Positions 1-16,199 of a stretch of 18,607 nucleotides of DNA are shown here, in pieces. The notes beneath the pieces are model-generated. The model had not been told where the DNA came from and searched no databases. It was given only the letters and a program-made list of their open reading frames with translations. The translations under genes were made by a program, and so were the position numbers. Numbering within the stretch: position 1 is the stretch's first letter; every line of letters starts with the position of its first letter. This DNA comes from a bacterium (GTDB lineage Bacteria > Blakebacterota > Blakebacteria > Blakebacterales > Blakebacteraceae): the NCBI GenBank assembly GCA_025774615.1, contig JALGVQ010000067.1, forward strand, positions 1 through 18,607, written 5' to 3'.

Positions 1-583
1 ATCATCCGCCCCCGGTTCATCATGCCCATGCTGCCACTGCGACCCGACCCGGCACGTCCCGGCATCGATCCACGTCCACGACTGAAACCAGCTTGTCCCC
101 GACCCATCGATCCACGTCCACGGCTGAAACCGGCTTGTCCCCGGCCCATTGATCCACGTCCACGGCTGTAAACGGTCTGTCCACGGCCCATCGATACACG
201 TCCGCCGGACATCATGGCGTTGCCGAATGTCCCCCGAAAGCCGAGAAACCCGGATGCCCGGTTGAACAGCTGCTGCTGGTCTTCAGGGAGGACATTCATG
301 ACCTCCGCCCGGTTCCGGATGGACTGAATCTTTCAGGGTCCGTATCCAGCATCAGTTTGTTCAGGTCGGCTCGTGCCTGGACCAGTGCCGACTGAGCCTC
401 GAGCGCCGCTTCACGGTGTCTCTCGCTGATCTGCTGGATCTCTGCCTTCTGCTCGTCGGTGAGTTCCAGTCGCTGCTGCCAGCTCTGCCCCTGTACCGGT
501 GGGACCTGCTGGGCACTGATACCCGCCTGAACCACGATCGTGAGCAGGGCTGCGCCGGCCATCAATCCTGATATTCGTCGCAT
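1..583 (-). CDS. Spy/CpxP-like exported protein with RG-rich repeat tail; frame broken once, 3' end outside window
   Basis: The start is the ATG at 583, behind a GGAAAG ribosome site. It begins MRRISGLMAGAALLTIVV, a Sec signal peptide cut near SAQQ. A charged helical region follows, beginning LELTDEQKAEIQQISERH; the LTxxQ element, Glu/Gln-rich helices and size fit the Spy/CpxP/LTXXQ family of small periplasmic chaperones or metal-stress proteins. The frame breaks near 331-333. Read straight, it stops at 296 after ...TDPERFSPSGTGRRS. One extra A restores ...DPEKIQSIRNRAEVMNVL, which continues as LPEDQQQLFNRASGF, then FRGTFGNAMMSGGR, then three 14-residue repeats of the type MGRGQAGFSRGRGS and an RG/GM-rich end still open at position 1. 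The continuation is clearly coding, so this is either a real one-base deletion or a sequence error. The signature does not look like a programmed -1 site, because the P-site codon GAA would have to re-pair on TGA. The family call is moderate; the function of the RG tail is unknown. Confidence 0.65.
66..203 (-). repeat. 42-bp in-frame tandem repeat (about 3.3 copies) encoding MGRGQAGFSRGRGS
   Basis: Units lie at 66-107, 108-149 and 150-191, with a partial copy at 192-203. On the minus strand each unit is 14 codons, and the copies read MGRGQTVYSRGRGS, MGRGQAGFSRGRGS and MGRGQAGFSRGRGS. The two downstream copies are nearly identical at the DNA level and the first has drifted, which suggests recent expansion. 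The unit length is a multiple of three, so copy-number change keeps the frame. Confidence 0.9.
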
Positions 584-735: not shown

Positions 736-2838
736 CTAACGATCAGGTGGGTATGGATGGAGTGCCAGAAGGGTGACTTCCCTGCTGATCTCCCTCTCCA
801 GGAGATTATCCCTCACCGTGACTCTCAGCCGGTACGGCCCTTCCGGATACTCACTCAGGCTGAGGAGCGGCCGGTGTGTATTGTCCGGCTGAAGACTCCT
901 GTAGATACTTGAGAGGGCGACGACCGGTTCGCCTCTGCTGATCCCGAGCAGGGCCGCGATCGAGGACTGGATGGTTCCCGATCTGACCTGGGAGCCCGGC
1001 TCAGGAAAAACCTCATAGATGACTTCGTAGTCGGTGACACCATCGATATCACGGCCGAGACCATAGAGCTCGAAATACACCTGAAATGAACGGTCGATAT
1101 CGAATACTCCTGCCGGGTGGGGCAGGAATTCCAGACCCTCATCGAGAAGATTCTTCTCCAGATCACTGAGTGTGTCGGCCGACGCAAGGACCAGGTCACT
1201 CATGCCGAGATCGATCCCCGAATAGTCCCGGATCTCAAGGGTCACCGGCCCTATCGATCCATACCGTTGTGAGGAGCGGTGGGCCACGAATGAGGATATC
1301 TGGTACGTTCCCGGATCGATATCCAGAGTTATCGCTTCCACAAATCGTCTCGATCGCTGGATCTCTGTGGAAGGCCCCGCCAGGATCAGCCTGGAACGAT
1401 CGACGTCAGCGCTGATCCGCAGGTTCTCATCCTCCAGCGTGACCTCGCTGATCATGGCTTCAGACGGCAGAGAATCAAGTGTGGACCCGATCAGTTCAGA
1501 GACCGGGATGGAGAAATAGGCATGGAGCCTGGTCTTTCCTTCCACTCCTCTGAACTGGGCGACCTGGAACGCCGGTTTCAGCGATTCGTTCATCTCCTCC
1601 AGCCGGGAGATCACGGGAAGGTGTTCCTTCAGGGCATTGTTGAGAGCGAGTCCATCACCGGTGAGCAGCATCTCGCCGCCAACGGTCACATCACGAAGCA
1701 CGAAGAGGAATCCTTCCCACTTGTAGACCCAGAAGGAGAATCGCCCCTGTCCCCTCGGTGGTTCGAAGTCGGTGTTGAAAAAGGTGGTGCTGTTGCCGGA
1801 ATCGAACGAGGTGATCGGCAATCCCAGTTCAAGCATTCTCGAACGCCACTGTGACTGGAAGTCTCCATCCAGAATCATGTTGAGACTGAGGCCGGAGGTG
1901 CTCGTCACGCGGAAATCGGGTGGGCCGTATCTAACGAAGAGCTCACCCCGGAAATCCCAGGGAAACGTGATGTCTCCAAACCGGGTCCTCGCCTCGGTGA
2001 CTCGCCACATATGTTCAATGAAGCGCGTGGCGTATCCGTCGAGGTTTGCTCCCCCCCGCTTCGCCCAGTAGCGCCGCTGGAAAAGCTCCCGGGTCTCGGG
2101 ATCGAGCTCCCGGTACAATGCCTCTTCGGCGCTGGAGAGCAGAGGAGCGATATCGTAGATCACCTCCCGCTCCATTGGTGAGAGGATCGACAGATAGCGC
2201 CGCGCCACGAGTGCGGCAGAGGCCCACTCTCTCTTCCTCAGATACAGTTTGATGAGTGGCCGGTATATCCTCGGCTGGGTCCTGAACTCCACCAGCACCC
2301 GGGAGGCAAGCGATTCCGCCATCTCCCATTCCCGCATATCGACCGAGAGCTCCAACAGGCGAACTGTGGCTTCCATATGGAGAGGATCAGCCTGGAGCTG
2401 GTTCTCGAATTCGATTCCTGCCCTGAGTGAATCACCAACACCCTCCAGCCAGGCAATACCCCTTTTGAGATACACATCGGGATAGGAAGGATTCAGCTGG
2501 ACGACCTGATCGAACGCGCTGATGGCATTCCGGGCCCGTCTCGCGGTAAGTCCTCTGTCAACGAGAGAGAGGTAGACTTCTCCCTGAAGCATCCATGCCG
2601 TGACATCCTCTTTATCTTTACGCGTGGCACGCCGTATCAGTCTCAACGCCTCCTCTTCATGTCCCTCTTCGAAGGCGGCACGTGCCTGTTCGACCAGGTT
2701 CTCCTGGCTCACCGCTGAGATCGGTGTAAAGAGGATGAGCAGAAGGAGGAGCCCGGAACGGATGAAGTGTCTGGAAGAACGATCTCCCCGGGAAGCGCCC
2801 GGGAAAACAGGATTAATAGATGAATTCCCTGATGTCAT
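736..2838 (-). CDS. Exported TPR protein with GWxTD-type domain
   Basis: The frame opens at 2922, but the better start is the ATG at 2838 with GAGG five bases upstream, giving 700 residues. This start overlaps the end of the radical SAM gene by 26 bases, which suggests translational coupling. After a long polar N-terminus, residues 28-45 form a hydrophobic signal segment (GLLLLLILFTPISA). Residues ~47-215 are TPR-like helical repeats, for example EEALRLIRRATRKDKEDVTAW and the NAISAFDQVVQLNPSYPDVY unit. Residues ~250-310 carry a GWxTD-like segment: FQRRYWAKRGG, then helices, then FPWDFRGELFVRYGPPDF, matching the family pattern GWxTDRGxxYIxYGxPD. The remaining ~390 residues look beta-rich. GWxTD proteins are exported proteins of unknown function in Acidobacteria, Gemmatimonadota and FCB-type phyla, so no biochemical role can be given. 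Its partner with the same domain is the plus-strand gene at 5078. Confidence 0.75.
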   Translation of the reverse strand: MTSGNSSINPVFPGASRGDRSSRHFIRSGLLLLLILFTPISAVSQENLVEQARAAFEEGHEEEALRLIRRATRKDKEDVTAWMLQGEVYLSLVDRGLTARRARNAISAFDQVVQLNPSYPDVYLKRGIAWLEGVGDSLRAGIEFENQLQADPLHMEATVRLLELSVDMREWEMAESLASRVLVEFRTQPRIYRPLIKLYLRKREWASAALVARRYLSILSPMEREVIYDIAPLLSSAEEALYRELDPETRELFQRRYWAKRGGANLDGYATRFIEHMWRVTEARTRFGDITFPWDFRGELFVRYGPPDFRVTSTSGLSLNMILDGDFQSQWRSRMLELGLPITSFDSGNSTTFFNTDFEPPRGQGRFSFWVYKWEGFLFVLRDVTVGGEMLLTGDGLALNNALKEHLPVISRLEEMNESLKPAFQVAQFRGVEGKTRLHAYFSIPVSELIGSTLDSLPSEAMISEVTLEDENLRISADVDRSRLILAGPSTEIQRSRRFVEAITLDIDPGTYQISSFVAHRSSQRYGSIGPVTLEIRDYSGIDLGMSDLVLASADTLSDLEKNLLDEGLEFLPHPAGVFDIDRSFQVYFELYGLGRDIDGVTDYEVIYEVFPEPGSQVRSGTIQSSIAALLGISRGEPVVALSSIYRSLQPDNTHRPLLSLSEYPEGPYRLRVTVRDNLLEREISREVTLLALHPYPPDR

Positions 2839-4000
2839 AGCTGCCTCGTCGAGGCCCGCCATCCCGGTACGGCCGGAGAGCCGAAGCGATAGCCTGGTGC
2901 TGTTCTTCCATGCCCGCTTCATCGAGTGCCGATATTCCTTCCTGGCGCGCGATCACGCCATATGCCGCGTCCGGCAGGTCCATATGCCTGCTGAAGTATA
3001 CCATATCCTCTGAATCGAGCGGCAGTTCCCTGAGCACACGGATCGTATCCCGTACATGAGCTTCGTCGTACTCACGTCCTCCCGCTCCAAGGAGTATGAC
3101 GAGTGACACCCCCATTCCGGCCACCTTCATCGCTTCAGCGGTCTGGACGACATCGGAAGTCGAACCCGGCTTATTGAGCCATCGCAGGAGCGGATCGTGT
3201 CCCGATTCCATACCGATACAGGTCCGCCTGAGTCCCTTCTCCACGAGATGACGGTACTCTTCGACATTCTTTTTCGCTCCGGAGAAGCCATCGAGAAAAG
3301 CATGCATCCCCCCCCTTGCGGGCTGTTTCCCCCGATAATGCGCCATCACGATATCTATCAGGGGCACAAGCCTGTCCATCGGGAGGGCCAGCGCGTTCGC
3401 GTCCCCCAGGAATATCGACCGTCTCAGATCCACCCCCTCTCCCAGGAAGGAATCGACAGCAGTGAGGTGATCGCGCAGATCTTCACCGGTAGTGACCGAG
3501 AAGGGAGTATCCCGATAGAAGGTGCAGAAGGTGCAGGTATTGAACTGGCAGCCGTGAGTGAGCTGAACCACCAGCGCCATATACTGGTCGGGCGGAAGGA
3601 TGCCGACCGGTGACCATATCTGTGAGAACCGCTCCGCGTCGGCCAGGAGAGCGGCGCCGTCCCGCGCGGCGACTCTTTCAAGGGTGGTGAACAAACCGGG
3701 GAGTGGAGGTTGCGCGCCCCCGGGACCCGGTACCGGCTCAAGGCCTGGCAGATCGCCGGAGATCGCCGACTCCAGAAGCAGAGAGAGGCGGTCGCGCGTT
3801 CGCTCCCAGAGCGCGACCGCCTCATCTGATTCCACCCAGTGGTATGTTCGACCTCTTCGCGGTGCCCGCTCGATCGCGAGCACACGGCCGTTGAGACCCC
3901 ACCGGAACGTGCGATCGCCGTCGACGAGGCGCCATGGCCTCCCTTCGTGATCGACGGCGAGCAGGAGACCAGGATCGAGCCCGATCACCAGGCTCCCCAC
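2813..4000 (-). CDS. Radical SAM protein (COG1032/Elp3-type core), substrate unknown
   Basis: From GTG at 4000 the protein has 395 residues. The iron-sulfur/SAM motif is THGCQFNTCTFCTFY with C151, C156 and C159. The spacing is CX4CX2C rather than the commoner CX3CX2C; the longer first gap occurs in a known subset (GCxxNxCxFC type). Other radical-SAM landmarks follow: IFLGDANAL, the GMESGHDPLLRWLNKPG segment (the Elp3/HemN-like 'G.ESG....L..i.K' strand) and VILLGAGG. The first ~130 residues are a separate N-terminal region (LVIGLDPGLLLAVDHEGRPW). The start is doubtful: the frame is open up to the preceding gene's TAA at 4091-4093, a GAGGAG ribosome site lies just inside, and the extra codons look protein-like (PLWIWNREIEGCRPTLRYS), yet they contain no ATG, GTG or TTG. 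Function is cytoplasmic [4Fe-4S]/SAM radical chemistry; the substrate cannot be inferred from its envelope-protein neighbours. Confidence 0.8.
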   Translation of the reverse strand: MGSLVIGLDPGLLLAVDHEGRPWRLVDGDRTFRWGLNGRVLAIERAPRRGRTYHWVESDEAVALWERTRDRLSLLLESAISGDLPGLEPVPGPGGAQPPLPGLFTTLERVAARDGAALLADAERFSQIWSPVGILPPDQYMALVVQLTHGCQFNTCTFCTFYRDTPFSVTTGEDLRDHLTAVDSFLGEGVDLRRSIFLGDANALALPMDRLVPLIDIVMAHYRGKQPARGGMHAFLDGFSGAKKNVEEYRHLVEKGLRRTCIGMESGHDPLLRWLNKPGSTSDVVQTAEAMKVAGMGVSLVILLGAGGREYDEAHVRDTIRVLRELPLDSEDMVYFSRHMDLPDAAYGVIARQEGISALDEAGMEEQHQAIASALRPYRDGGPRRGSYDIREFIY

Positions 4001-5077: not shown

Positions 5078-7345
5078 ATGCATCATTCGCATCGCTACCG
5101 GCAACCACGGATCGCGACAGGCCTGAGAATGAGAATCATTGAATCCTCCGCTGTTTTCCACCGACTCCCGTCAATTGCTCTCCTCCTGATCGCAGGTATC
5201 GTGGTTACATCCTGCGCCGGGAGTGGACCCTCATCTCAGGAAGTGACGCAGATCGTCGCTGCCGACAGGATCGAAGAGGTGAGGATCGCGGCCCTGATCT
5301 CCAACGCATCCATGAGAAGAGAGATGCGTCAGTCCGAGGATCCGATCGCCTGGCTGGACAATTTCTGGCAGCAACGTGACCCGACACCATCGACACCGGA
5401 GAACGAGGCGCTTCAGGTCTACATGCAGCGAGCGGAATTCCTGCGGAACCGGTTCCCTGAACTGGTCGATGCTGAGTGGCCCGAGCTTATGGTTCTCTTT
5501 CTGAAACTGGGTTCACCCGACTGGCAGGGCCCCGAATACGTAGTCTGGCCCCGAGTTGACGATGAGGGCAAGGACCGCACCATTCCAACAATCTCCGGGG
5601 GGTTCCAGTGGGAGCGGATGCGGTATGGCACGCCTCATGCATTCACCCTGGTCGTGGAGGAAGGGGAATTACGGAGGAATCTTCAGGTGGTCGTGCCTTA
5701 CGATCCACCCTCCCTGGAAGGTGTCTGGGAGATACTGGAGGGAAGCACGGCGAGCGCGTCGGAGCGCATCGAAGCGCTGACGCGAATCTCCTGGTACGAG
5801 CTTCCATCGATAGCCTCAAGGCTGCTCAATCTTTCCCCCGCGGGATTCACCGGGATTCAAGACCAGTACATGGTAACCCTCGAGCGGATTTCGGTCCGCA
5901 GTGCTTACCGCCTCGGTGTGGAAGGTGTCCGTCGGCTGGCCGCGCTGAGAGCTGCCGGTGCAACTCCTGAATTGTGCATTCGCCGGGCGATGTCGGGAGA
6001 ATACAGCGTGCAGAACCTGCTGACCGACCTGCGCCCTCTCTCCAATCGCCGCTATATTCTGGCCCGTGGTCCGAACCGCGGCCCCCATCCCCTGCTCTGG
6101 CTGAATCCGGAAGGTCTACTCGAGAGTCTGACACGCGATTTTCCCGCATCGCACACGATGACCGGCTGGGATTGGCAGGGTGATGTATTTCTCGCATTCG
6201 GCCCCCCCGCATACCTCGACATCAACAACCGGGCGGCCCGGTTCCTCTGGGGCACACCGGAGATACTCGGGATCGGCGACACCATGCTCGGCAAGGTGGA
6301 CGCAACCCGTCTCGATGATCAGCTGGCTTCGTTCCTCCGTGAAACCGCCGGTACCATTGAGCGGCGCAGGATACAGGAGAATCAGGCTGCGAATACCGTC
6401 ACAAATGCCCTGACCGGTGGTGGAACCGACCAGGTTACCCGGGGTATGCTCGACCAGCTGCACGTCCTTGCCCCACCTCTGGTATACAACATGGGTCTCC
6501 CCTCTGAGGTGCGCCCCATACCGATATCGATGGATATCGTGGCATTTCCGACTGAAACTGATTCGGTCGAGGTGCAGGCCACTTTCGGTGTTCCGGCTAA
6601 TGCCGTTCGCATGCGGGTTCAGGAAGAGTTCCTGATCACCGACCTCAGAACAAATCTGCTTATCATCGACCACGATCTGAACGCGATCCATGCGGAGAGT
6701 CGTCAGCAGGGGTACGTGATCAATACTTCGGAGGGAACCGAGGGGAGGTTCTTCCTCGACACCTACCGCTTCAAGATCCCCCCCGGTTCATACATCGCCT
6801 ATCTGTCGGCTGAAGACCCGAACGGTGAGACCTCCGGTGCAGCCATGGTGAGTGTAGACCTCACCTCCATGGCTACCGACCGGCTGCAGGTCTCACCGAT
6901 CCTGCTCGCTTCCGACATCCAGCCGACCGGGGAGGAAGGGAAGTTCATCCGCGGGGGGCTGCAGATACTGCCCGCCCCGTCCCGGCGATTCCTGTATGGC
7001 GACGATCTCTTCTTCTACTACGAGGTGGATAATCTCAGCCGTTCCGATGTGGGGGACTACGTGATCAGCGAATCCCTCTACATCATCCCGAATGACACCA
7101 ATGAGGGGATCATAACCATCGCCTCGGGGCAGAACATCACCGGACTCGAACCCTCACTGAACCGGAGCATGGGTATCGATCTCTCCAGTCTGGGCAGATC
7201 GTATGAGGGCGTAGTGCACCTCGTTGTGCTGGTGACCGACCAGGTCTCAGGTGAGCAGGCCGTGGGCGCTACCCTGCTGATCCTTCGTCGACCGAATACA
7301 GAGGGTCAGGAACCACCACCCGGTGATACGCCGGACATTCAATAA
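5078..7345 (+). CDS. GWxTD-domain lipoprotein with duplicated GWxTD segment
   Basis: The frame starts at ATG 5078 (755 residues). The internal ATG at 5129, with an AGG about eight bases upstream, gives a more normal lipoprotein signal (MRIIESS...IALLLIAGIVVTSC) and may be the true start. Lipobox VTSC puts lipidated Cys46 (numbered from 5078). The first GWxTD-type unit is at residues ~88-150: IAWLDNFWQQRDPTPSTPEN is the classic helical lead-in ('FW..RDPTP.TPENE'), followed by a degenerate EWPELMVLFLKLGSPDW. A second, clearer copy lies at 363-377, GWDWQGDVFLAFGPP. The rest is beta-rich, including a repeat-like segment SYIAYLSAEDPNGETSGAAM and YGDDLFFYYEVDNLSRSDVG, and a Pro-rich C-terminus. It heads a two-gene plus-strand unit with the M24 peptidase 18 bases downstream. 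The role is unknown for the family; an envelope location is well supported. Confidence 0.8.
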   Translation: MHHSHRYRQPRIATGLRMRIIESSAVFHRLPSIALLLIAGIVVTSCAGSGPSSQEVTQIVAADRIEEVRIAALISNASMRREMRQSEDPIAWLDNFWQQRDPTPSTPENEALQVYMQRAEFLRNRFPELVDAEWPELMVLFLKLGSPDWQGPEYVVWPRVDDEGKDRTIPTISGGFQWERMRYGTPHAFTLVVEEGELRRNLQVVVPYDPPSLEGVWEILEGSTASASERIEALTRISWYELPSIASRLLNLSPAGFTGIQDQYMVTLERISVRSAYRLGVEGVRRLAALRAAGATPELCIRRAMSGEYSVQNLLTDLRPLSNRRYILARGPNRGPHPLLWLNPEGLLESLTRDFPASHTMTGWDWQGDVFLAFGPPAYLDINNRAARFLWGTPEILGIGDTMLGKVDATRLDDQLASFLRETAGTIERRRIQENQAANTVTNALTGGGTDQVTRGMLDQLHVLAPPLVYNMGLPSEVRPIPISMDIVAFPTETDSVEVQATFGVPANAVRMRVQEEFLITDLRTNLLIIDHDLNAIHAESRQQGYVINTSEGTEGRFFLDTYRFKIPPGSYIAYLSAEDPNGETSGAAMVSVDLTSMATDRLQVSPILLASDIQPTGEEGKFIRGGLQILPAPSRRFLYGDDLFFYYEVDNLSRSDVGDYVISESLYIIPNDTNEGIITIASGQNITGLEPSLNRSMGIDLSSLGRSYEGVVHLVVLVTDQVSGEQAVGATLLILRRPNTEGQEPPPGDTPDIQ

Positions 7346-10545: not shown

Positions 10546-10923
10546 ATGGGTGGAATCAAAGATATCATTGTCGTCGGGGACCGCGTGCTCATCAGGCCGG
10601 AGGAGGAATCGGATCAGACCTCGCATGGTCTCTATCTGCCCGCGGGAGTCCGTTCAAAGGAAAAGGTACAGGGCGGGACCATCATGCAGGTCGGACCGGG
10701 ATACCCCATACCCGACCCGTACATGGATGACGAACCGTGGTCACAGGATGAGAAGGAGATCATCAAGTATGTCCCCCTGCAGTCCCAGCCGGGGGATTAT
10801 GCCCTCTTCCTGCGGGAGCGGGCGATAGAGATCGAATATGAGGGACAGACACTGCTGATCATTCCCCAGTCCTCCCTCCTCATACTGGTCCGGAAAGATC
10901 CCCTGGAAGAACTGCAGAGGTAG
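10546..10923 (+). CDS. Stand-alone Cpn10/GroES-like co-chaperonin family protein
   Basis: The 125-residue protein aligns with GroES across its length. VVGDRVLIRPEEESDQTSHG matches the first strand and mobile loop; GLYLPAGVRSKEKVQGG and IMQVGPG match the 'GGIxLP..A.EKPQEG.V.AVGPG' core; KYVPLQSQPGDYALF matches the 'VKVGDxVxF' turn; QTLLIIPQSSLLILV matches the C-terminal 'EYLIxxESDILAV' strand. The mobile-loop hydrophobic tripeptide that contacts GroEL is LYL rather than IVL/IML. About 20 residues (YPIPDPYMDDEPWSQDEKEI) are inserted in the roof region, making it longer than the usual ~95-100 residues. No groEL lies in the window. A family of this shape occurs in Bacteroidetes and relatives, from memory. 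It is probably cytoplasmic; whether it serves a chaperonin is unknown. The start has only a weak CAGGG ribosome site. Confidence 0.8.
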   Translation: MGGIKDIIVVGDRVLIRPEEESDQTSHGLYLPAGVRSKEKVQGGTIMQVGPGYPIPDPYMDDEPWSQDEKEIIKYVPLQSQPGDYALFLRERAIEIEYEGQTLLIIPQSSLLILVRKDPLEELQR

Positions 10924-10996: not shown

Positions 10997-11425
10997 ATGG
11001 AGACGAGATCGATGTCACGCATGTCACGCATGTCACGCAGTAACACGATCCACGGGCTGGTTGTGGCAGCCCTGTTGATCATGATTGCAGGCTGCGCCGC
11101 GAGCGCACCGAGTATTGACCAGGCCAGGATCAGGAACAAGCTCGACCTCAGACTGCAGGGCGCCCTCGGCGGCAGGAACATCGGAGAAACGCTGGGTGAG
11201 TTCATCCAGGTTTCAGTTCGCATGCAATCGGCAGGCACAGCTGAAGATCTGAGCCAGCTCGCCCTGTATGGGGTGCCCGGGCAGTTCCTGGGATCGATCA
11301 CCACGTTGATCATTGAACCATCAAAGATCATTGATGTTGCCGCGCTCGACAGGGTCGTCTTCCTCGAGCTGGCGGTCAGGAATGTACCGAACCCGGCGAT
11401 ACCCCCCCCACCCCCAGCGGATTGA
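10997..11425 (+). CDS. Small lipoprotein resembling a free-standing subtilase propeptide (I9-like), upstream of the subtilase
   Basis: The frame opens at ATG 10997 (142 residues). ATGs at 11012, 11021 and 11030 are alternatives; 11012 has GGAGA nine bases upstream. The signal peptide is TIHGLVVAALLIMIAGC, a good lipobox (IAGC). The mature part is ~110 residues with a Pro-rich end (NPAIPPPPPAD). By eye it matches the propeptide-like segment of the next gene: here IQVSVRM...AEDL...YGVPG...ITTLIIEPSKIIDVAALDRVVFLELA, there VEIVIRG...AVESAV...GGLIG...IHTARVPLRTLSVLALSDGIEWIEAA, with the same order of strand, helix, Gly, strand, 'P...l..lA..d.v..iE.a'. This is the I9/subtilisin-propeptide pattern. 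It ends within or 8 bases before the subtilase start. I infer a membrane-tethered protease inhibitor or folding aid; this is a visual match only. Confidence 0.6.
   Translation: METRSMSRMSRMSRSNTIHGLVVAALLIMIAGCAASAPSIDQARIRNKLDLRLQGALGGRNIGETLGEFIQVSVRMQSAGTAEDLSQLALYGVPGQFLGSITTLIIEPSKIIDVAALDRVVFLELAVRNVPNPAIPPPPPAD
11012..11038 (+). repeat. Three perfect copies of a 9-bp repeat (ATGTCACGC) at the start of the small lipoprotein gene
   Basis: Copies at 11012-11020, 11021-11029 and 11030-11038 encode MSRMSRMSR just before the signal peptide core. Each copy carries an in-frame ATG, so copy-number change would add or remove possible start codons without changing frame. Confidence 0.85.
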
Positions 11426-15095: not shown

Positions 15096-15125
15096 AAAAG
15101 GGACCGGTAATCCCCGGTCCCTTTT
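15096..15125. terminator. Bidirectional rho-independent terminator between the subtilase operon and the thioredoxin operon
   Basis: AAAAGGGACCGG (15096-15107), loop TAATCC, CCGGTCCCTTTT (15114-15125) form a perfect 12-bp stem with T- and A-runs on either side. It serves the plus-strand gene ending at 15058 and the minus-strand gene ending at 15179. The stem core GGGACCGG is nearly the same as in the terminator at 8628. Confidence 0.9.
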
Positions 15126-15178
15126 CCTTTGCCAGATCGTGTCACCCGACCGTCTGAAGACGGCTCGAGTCGCGCCGT

Positions 15179-16156
15179 TCAGTCGATACCCTCATCCCTG
15201 TCTTTGACGAACAGCTCCATCAGAGTCTTAATTTCTTCTTCTGTGATCCGCACCGCGGCCTTCCTTATGATCTCCCCGAAAGTGGCGATCTCCTCATCGG
15301 TGACGGGACCGCCGATGTTGCCGTTCGGACCGAAACTGTCAGCCACGATCGATCCGTCCGGTTCCAGGATGAAGAAGACCGGGATGCCGCCGTAGGTATC
15401 GCCCCGGAACTTGTCTGTGATCTCGGCCAGGTACCGGTTCTTGACCTCCACCCCGCCGATGGTCCGGTCCTGGTCGATCTTCAGCACGATCAGGTCCTTG
15501 TCGATGATCGCTTTGGTGGCCTCACGGGCCAGGTAGGCTTCAAGCAGCCCACAGTATCCTCACCACGGGGCCCCGAAGGTGAGGAAAACCCGCTTATGGG
15601 TCCGCTCTGCCTCGGCCAGCGCATCGCTGAGGAGATCCTCGGCTGCCAGGTACTCCGCCTGATGCTCGGTCAGGAAGGAATTGACCAGTTCCGGATCATG
15701 GGCATTATCCTTCTCCAATGACCCGGTCTCCTGGTGAGTGACCACATTCCCCTCTCCGTCCAGTACCGTCAGGTAGGGCACTCCGTTACTCTTGAAATCG
15801 GCGCCGTATTTCTCGGCCAGCTCCAGGTTCTTGTCCCAGCGGCCGATGTCTACGTAGACGACCTCGTACTCATAGAGGAGTGTCCGGGCGACGGTGCGGT
15901 CATCCTGGTAAGTCCCATGCAGGAGTATGCACCAGCCGCACCAGTTGGCTCCCCACTGGATCAGAACCCGTTTGTTCTCCTTGGCGGCGACGGCCAGGGC
16001 GACCTGGATATCCGCGGCCGCATCAGCAGATTCATCGTAGACCGGGACTTCTTCGGCAGCCTCTTCCTGCTGGAAGGGTGCTGCCGCCACGCTCGTGGCA
16101 GGGAGAAGGACCGCGATCGCCAGCGCCAGTAACGCAGGGTGGGCGTATCGTCTCAC
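15179..16156 (-). CDS. Putative selenoprotein: exported tandem thioredoxin-fold protein (CxxC domain then UxxC domain), TGA read as Sec
   Basis: GTG at 16156 is fixed by AGGAGGT at 16164-16170. I read one 325-residue protein through the in-frame TGA at 15560-15562. Residues 1-26 are a Sec signal peptide (PALLALAIAVLLPATSVAAA). Domain 1 (~45-165) has the redox site W72-C73-G74-W75-C76 and cis-Pro127 (NGVPYLTVLDGEGN). Domain 2 (~170-325) has FLTFGAPW-U199-G200-Y201-C202 and cis-Pro259 (YGGIPVFFILEPDG). The TGA therefore replaces precisely the first catalytic Cys of a WCGYC motif, and 126 coherent codons follow, with helix (LLEAYLAREATKAIIDKD), strand (LIVLKIDQD) and C-terminal helices. The alternative is a TGC/TGT-to-TGA nonsense mutation or sequencing error. 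Role inferred: periplasmic thiol/selenol oxidoreductase. The true stop is also TGA, so the recoding signal must be local. Last gene of the NfeD/slipin/acyltransferase operon, 43 bases after the acyltransferase. Confidence 0.8.
15517..15559 (-). promoter_or_regulatory. Candidate bacterial SECIS region directly 3' of the Sec TGA
   Basis: On the mRNA strand, numbering from the base after UGA, two hairpins can form. Hairpin A: bases 8-27, GUGGGCU-GCUUGA-AGCCUAC, seven pairs with one G-U wobble and a 6-nt loop. Hairpin B: bases 29-43, UGGCC-CGUGA-GGCCA, five GC-rich pairs, with an outer GCUU/AAGC pairing (15-18 with 47-50) that would make a longer bipartite stem. The loop G's of both lie about 14-36 bases after UGA, and B's loop carries GU; bacterial SECIS hairpins typically place an apical G ~16-37 bases from UGA. 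A and B compete, so only one would be the working form. Confidence 0.45.
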
Positions 16157-16199
16157 TTTCCATACCTCCTGTGATCAGATCATGATGAAGATGTGTTTC

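Follow-up and report, generated by a model that had tools for sequence, protein, structure and literature searches.

An apparently new family of predicted exported bacterial selenoproteins with CxxC and UxxC thioredoxin domains in tandem

Introduction

An inventory of 119 prokaryotic selenoprotein families from 2026 includes UxxC thioredoxins, a PF13098 UxxC protein, a Trx7/PDZ protein with a CxxU motif, and seleno_TsoB, which is listed with two selenocysteine (Sec) residues in a UxxxxU motif; it holds no CxxC-UxxC tandem (PMC13188914). No such tandem appears in the accessible part of a list from 2022 (PMC9312934), and our literature searches returned no description of a CxxC-UxxC tandem thioredoxin family.

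Here, we analyzed a gene on the minus strand of an 18,607-nucleotide stretch of bacterial DNA (contig JALGVQ010000067.1 of assembly GCA_025774615.1), which as a whole is called the window. Like the bacterial Sec thioredoxin of PF00085 and the PF13098 thiol:disulfide interchange protein, the predicted product has a thioredoxin fold whose UxxC motif begins with a UGA-encoded Sec (PMC13188914). Unlike them, it is a fusion in which the Thioredoxin_7 domain follows a second thioredoxin domain that is Cys based, and it is predicted to be exported, the PF13098 representative (WP_011366075.1) being compared by description only. With the Trx7/PDZ selenoprotein NF041199 it shares a Thioredoxin_7-type domain with Sec (PMC13188914); however, NF041199 also has a PDZ domain, its motif is CxxU, with Sec at the second position, and the window protein did not match it at E 0.01. 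The thioredoxin part of seleno_TsoB (NF045694), a rhodanese/DsbD fusion-like selenoprotein, is likewise DsbD-like, but the window protein scores 41.9 bits against a cut-off of 805 bits and matches only the C-terminal thioredoxin part of that model. The DsbD C-terminal domain, DsbH, and the Xylella disulfide isomerase 3fk8 resemble domain 1 in fold and CxxC motif but have no UxxC second domain of the window kind. Eukaryotic PDI, ERp72, and QSOX1 also carry several thioredoxin domains per secretory protein and have weak sequence similarity to domain 2; they are, however, Cys based, and whole-chain TM-scores were low.

A sequence-only reading of this DNA had named no precedent for an exported CxxC-UxxC fusion in an NfeD/slipin operon, and neither the 2026 inventory (PMC13188914) nor NCBIfam supplied such a fusion. 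In NCBIfam of June 2026, no model scored above its cut-off for the window protein. Because the inventories lack the tandem and NCBIfam lacks such a model, these proteins look like a new selenoprotein family of a known kind, set apart from the PF13098 UxxC entry by description only, so that a link between the two is possible.

Results

The gene runs from 16156 to 15179 on the minus strand and has 325 codons, from a GTG start (16156-16154) to a terminal TGA (15181-15179). By sequence, a ribosome-binding site (AGGAGG, 16165-16170, minus strand) lies 8 nucleotides 5' of the GTG. Inspection of the reading frame found a single in-frame stop within it, a TGA at 15562-15560 (minus strand) that corresponds to residue 199, the first residue of the UxxC motif of domain 2. 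Thus, the two open reading frames noticed in one frame by the sequence-only reading are indeed split by this TGA alone. A putative signal peptide, read by eye, covers approximately residues 1 to 26 (16079-16156, minus strand), with a hydrophobic core and the ending TSVAAA. The sister genome L014, of the same genus, encodes a form of the protein (L014:2901-3695) with a lipobox-like LVTGC in place of this AxA-type signal peptide, so that even close relatives may be anchored differently. An inverted repeat, AAAGGGACCGG...CCGGTCCCTTT, at about 15097-15127, not assigned to a strand, lies between two convergent genes and is probably, judged from its sequence and position, a two-way terminator. An Rfam scan of the window gave no match.

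Both halves of the protein are predicted thioredoxin folds. Domain 1 (residues 39-164; 15665-16042, minus strand) has the active site C73-GW-C76 and a cis-proline at 127, and its assignment rests on Pfam, the structure model, and structure neighbors; domain 2 (residues 165-325; 15182-15664, minus strand) has U199-GY-C202 and a cis-proline at 259, assigned from Pfam and the model. Thioredoxin_7 and Thioredoxin_2 of Pfam matched the protein twice and passed their gathering cut-offs (80.2 versus 27 bits and 47 versus 27 bits, respectively). The context of residue 199 (GAPW-U-GYC) corresponds to its domain 1 counterpart (GANW-C-GWC), as had been proposed. When the halves were aligned with each other, 31% of residues were identical across 94 columns (E = 7e-12). 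In the AlphaFold2 model (mean pLDDT of 90), the order of strands and helices is repeated twice, C73 and residue 199 stand immediately before the active-site helix of their domains, as do P127 and P259 before the strand that follows. The model's P259 and the Thioredoxin_7 match at residues 174 to 266 also agree with the earlier view that the frame 3' of the TGA completes a second thioredoxin fold, including its cis-proline. A structure search with domain 1 only returned the bacterial disulfide isomerase 3fk8 (Z of 20) and the C-terminal domain of DsbD (Z of about 12).

A TGA within a conserved domain is what one classically sees in a pseudogene, and the draft assembly, 82% complete, is fragmented into 324 contigs. 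A nonsense mutation or an assembly error that broke the gene and left domain 2 as a relic was therefore weighed against relatives of the protein. These came from a genome scan (45 relatives) and from searches of 392 genomes in the phylum of L048 and 396 genomes in the phylum of L018, titled Aminicenantes; removal of duplicates and partial copies left 66 distinct full-length members, including the window protein. The other 65 are homologous to it across nearly its whole length. The codon for residue 199 is TGA in 18 members (the window and 17 others) and TGC or TGT in 48, and each of the 18 TGA members has its in-frame stop at residue 199 exactly and nowhere else. The L014 protein, 69% identical to that of the window, is one of them. 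The sequence-only reading had argued that a random nonsense mutation would rarely land on the one codon where Sec and Cys interchange, and this distribution strengthens the argument. Since the 18 TGA genes are in different genomes, an error in a single assembly cannot explain the codon. The identical codon in 18 members, selection on the part 3' of it (dN/dS well below 1; see below), and the presence of Sec machinery refute mutation or error in practice, and we regard it as extremely improbable. A natural end of the protein at residue 198 was likewise rejected, because all full-length relatives read on past that point with Cys or TGA.

By the titles of the genome records, the TGA members come from three phyla: the small phylum of the window (four genomes in the data set), the planctomycetes, and an Acidobacteriota-type phylum. 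Most members of the family are planctomycete proteins, and the window protein is thus one branch of a wider family. In a family tree built with the residue 199 column masked, there were at least seven changes between Sec and Cys, at least three of them forced by well-supported branches. Cys forms of the family also occur in Sec-decoding genomes.

Three TGA members from the phylum of L018 (L104, L105, and L106) have lost the CxxC of domain 1 (WGANDDALC and similar) and kept the UxxC of domain 2; the indispensable core thus seems to be domain 2, which can apparently be fed another way. These members also bear on a selenium-responsive switch, in which the gene would yield an active 198-residue CxxC protein without selenium and, with selenium, a CxxC-UxxC enzyme whose domain 1 passes electrons to the Sec domain within one chain. 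Because the whole of domain 1 precedes the UGA, a short product could fold, and domain 1 does have single-domain relatives (L055 and, in a plasmid search, partial single-domain matches, the only kind found there). However, the first helix and strand of domain 2 would be left unpaired in the 198-residue product, and in L104 to L106 this product would be redox inactive, because domain 1 there has no CxxC. We consider such a switch unlikely. Separately, L107 (G587) is a 631-residue open reading frame that ends in TAG directly behind a domain 1 copy at its C terminus and is a truncated or fused single-domain relative.

We next consider how the UGA would be read. The genome of the window has a tRNA-Sec (66.2 bits, anticodon TCA) and encodes SelA, SelB, and SelD; the sequence-only reading had proposed a search for these genes, and all four were present. 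Its SelD gene (G000:C273:7717-8634, outside the window) has one in-frame TGA, and therefore this SelD is probably a selenoprotein, as SelD is in many bacteria. Across the family, a tRNA-Sec match above the Rfam cut-off was found in all 18 TGA genomes, although it was marginal in G360. SelA was found in 13 of the 15 TGA genomes tested, G360 being one of the two in which it was not found, and in 24 of 40 genomes with the Cys form or an undetermined codon. The machinery is usually there, and there is no sharp correlation, so that SelA presence as a correlate of TGA is only suggestive.

Because the relatives' alternative at residue 199 is Cys, UGA could instead be imagined as an ordinary residue (Trp or Cys) read by a variant code or a suppressor tRNA. 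TGA, however, is a normal stop in this genome. The sequence-only reading had at least four genes of the window ending in TGA (11425, 15058, 16200, and 17342), of which those at 11425 and 17342 were seen as TTGA overlaps, and the present gene itself ends in TGA; UGA is therefore not a global sense codon here. Given these stops, the tRNA-Sec, SelA, SelB, and SelD of the genome, and the confinement of TGA within the family to the redox Cys position, we rejected a variant code, which has a negligible chance of being correct. Decoding as Sec thus remains the preferred reading of residue 199.

If UGA is decoded, the part 3' of it should be read as protein. Between the window and L014, dN was 0.236 and dS 0.708 after the TGA, compared with a dN of 0.162 and a dS of 0.683 before it, and in four other TGA pairs dN was well below dS on both sides. 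These rates indicate that the coding DNA 3' of the TGA is under purifying, protein-level selection and, because dN is well below dS there, that this part is translated.

The RNA sequence after the UGA also appears to be restricted, with synonymous change suppressed there in several close pairs. Between the window and L014, synonymous change is absent from the 13 codons that follow the UGA (0 of 10.3 sites; the gene average is 0.49 per site), and L104 and L106 have none there either (0 of 8.7 sites; gene average, 0.37). This depression is absent in some TGA pairs, and it was not consistent in 14 Cys pairs. We then scored ungapped hairpins with a G in the first two loop positions against synonymous recodings made with each gene's own codons. 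The mean z was -2.3 for TGA forms, -0.2 for Cys forms, and -0.17 after the domain 1 Cys of TGA genes, which served as a control, in sequences that are mutually related. One TGA form, L089, had no hairpin excess, and one large TGA clade has a common hairpin, CTCGAGG-AGTT-CCTCGAG, with its loop 22 nucleotides after the UGA.

In the window, the excess over synonymous recodings and the codon conservation against L014 mark a putative SECIS region (15517-15552, minus strand) with two hairpins. Hairpin 1 (15552-15533, minus strand; GTGGGCT-GCTTGA-AGCCTAC) has 7 bp, a GCUUGA loop 14 nucleotides after the UGA, and an energy of -10.2 kcal/mol; hairpin 2 (15531-15517, minus strand) has 5 bp, a CGUGA loop 33 nucleotides after the UGA, and -6.9 kcal/mol. 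Both exceeded the synonymous recodings (P of 0.01 and 0.03, respectively). Published bSECIS criteria call for a G in the first two loop positions, a loop 16 to 37 nucleotides after the UGA, and a minimum free energy of -7.5 or lower (PMC13188914); against these limits, the loop of hairpin 1 falls just short and hairpin 2 is too weak. A loose SECIS model that allows bulges fit all 18 TGA forms and 42 of the 48 Cys forms and hence did not separate them, and the whole-fold z-score of the 66 nucleotides around the UGA was weak (-1.04). Given these caveats, the comparison with recoded sequences still indicates that the RNA directly 3' of the UGA is constrained in TGA forms.

In the window and in L014, the genes share the order NfeD, slipin, HGSNAT-like membrane protein, selenoprotein. 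The NfeD/slipin setting pointed out earlier thus holds within the genus; beyond it, this gene order was not seen in the other family members examined. Because it is not conserved in those members, the neighborhood gives no functional clue. Elsewhere in the window are a stand-alone Cpn10/GroES-like protein (10546-10923, plus strand) with no adjoining GroEL gene within the window, an open reading frame with an Arg/Gly-rich repeat (RGRGSMGRGQ...) that runs off the window edge (3-299, minus strand), and two long exported proteins (736-2922, minus strand, and 5078-7345, plus strand) that resemble each other in style and are perhaps distant paralogues. A DsbD-type membrane protein (DsbD_TM) is encoded by the window genome, and a search of eight other TGA genomes found one in each.

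Discussion

Taken together, the distribution of TGA and Cys across the family, the Sec machinery, the selection after the UGA, and the constraint on the RNA there support the tandem CxxC/UxxC selenoprotein put forward by the sequence-only reading. The gene very probably encodes an exported thiol-disulfide oxidoreductase of two thioredoxin folds, periplasmic or at the cell surface, in which the genome's own SelA, SelB, tRNA-Sec, and SelD would insert Sec at the internal UGA, directed by a hairpin within the coding sequence just after it. Sec incorporation of this type would be standard, and it is the family and its architecture that look new.

Within the protein, Sec199 of domain 2 is probably the attacking nucleophile, with C202 as the resolving residue, and domain 1 probably serves as a relay. 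Because domain 1 is like the C-terminal domain of DsbD, it is plausible that electrons would pass from a DsbD-type membrane reductase to C73/C76 and from there to U199/C202. The most likely job of the protein would be the reduction of oxidized envelope proteins or small oxidants.

With standard gene calling, proteins of this family are cut short at residue 198 or come out as two separate genes. The family adds a CxxC-UxxC tandem to the bacterial selenoprotein inventory and would mean that an exported redox protein found in planctomycetes, in an Acidobacteriota-type phylum, and in a third, barely sampled phylum contains Sec. Because Sec and Cys have been exchanged repeatedly within a fixed framework and Cys forms occur in Sec-decoding genomes as well, it offers a natural data set on why redox enzymes gain and lose selenium.
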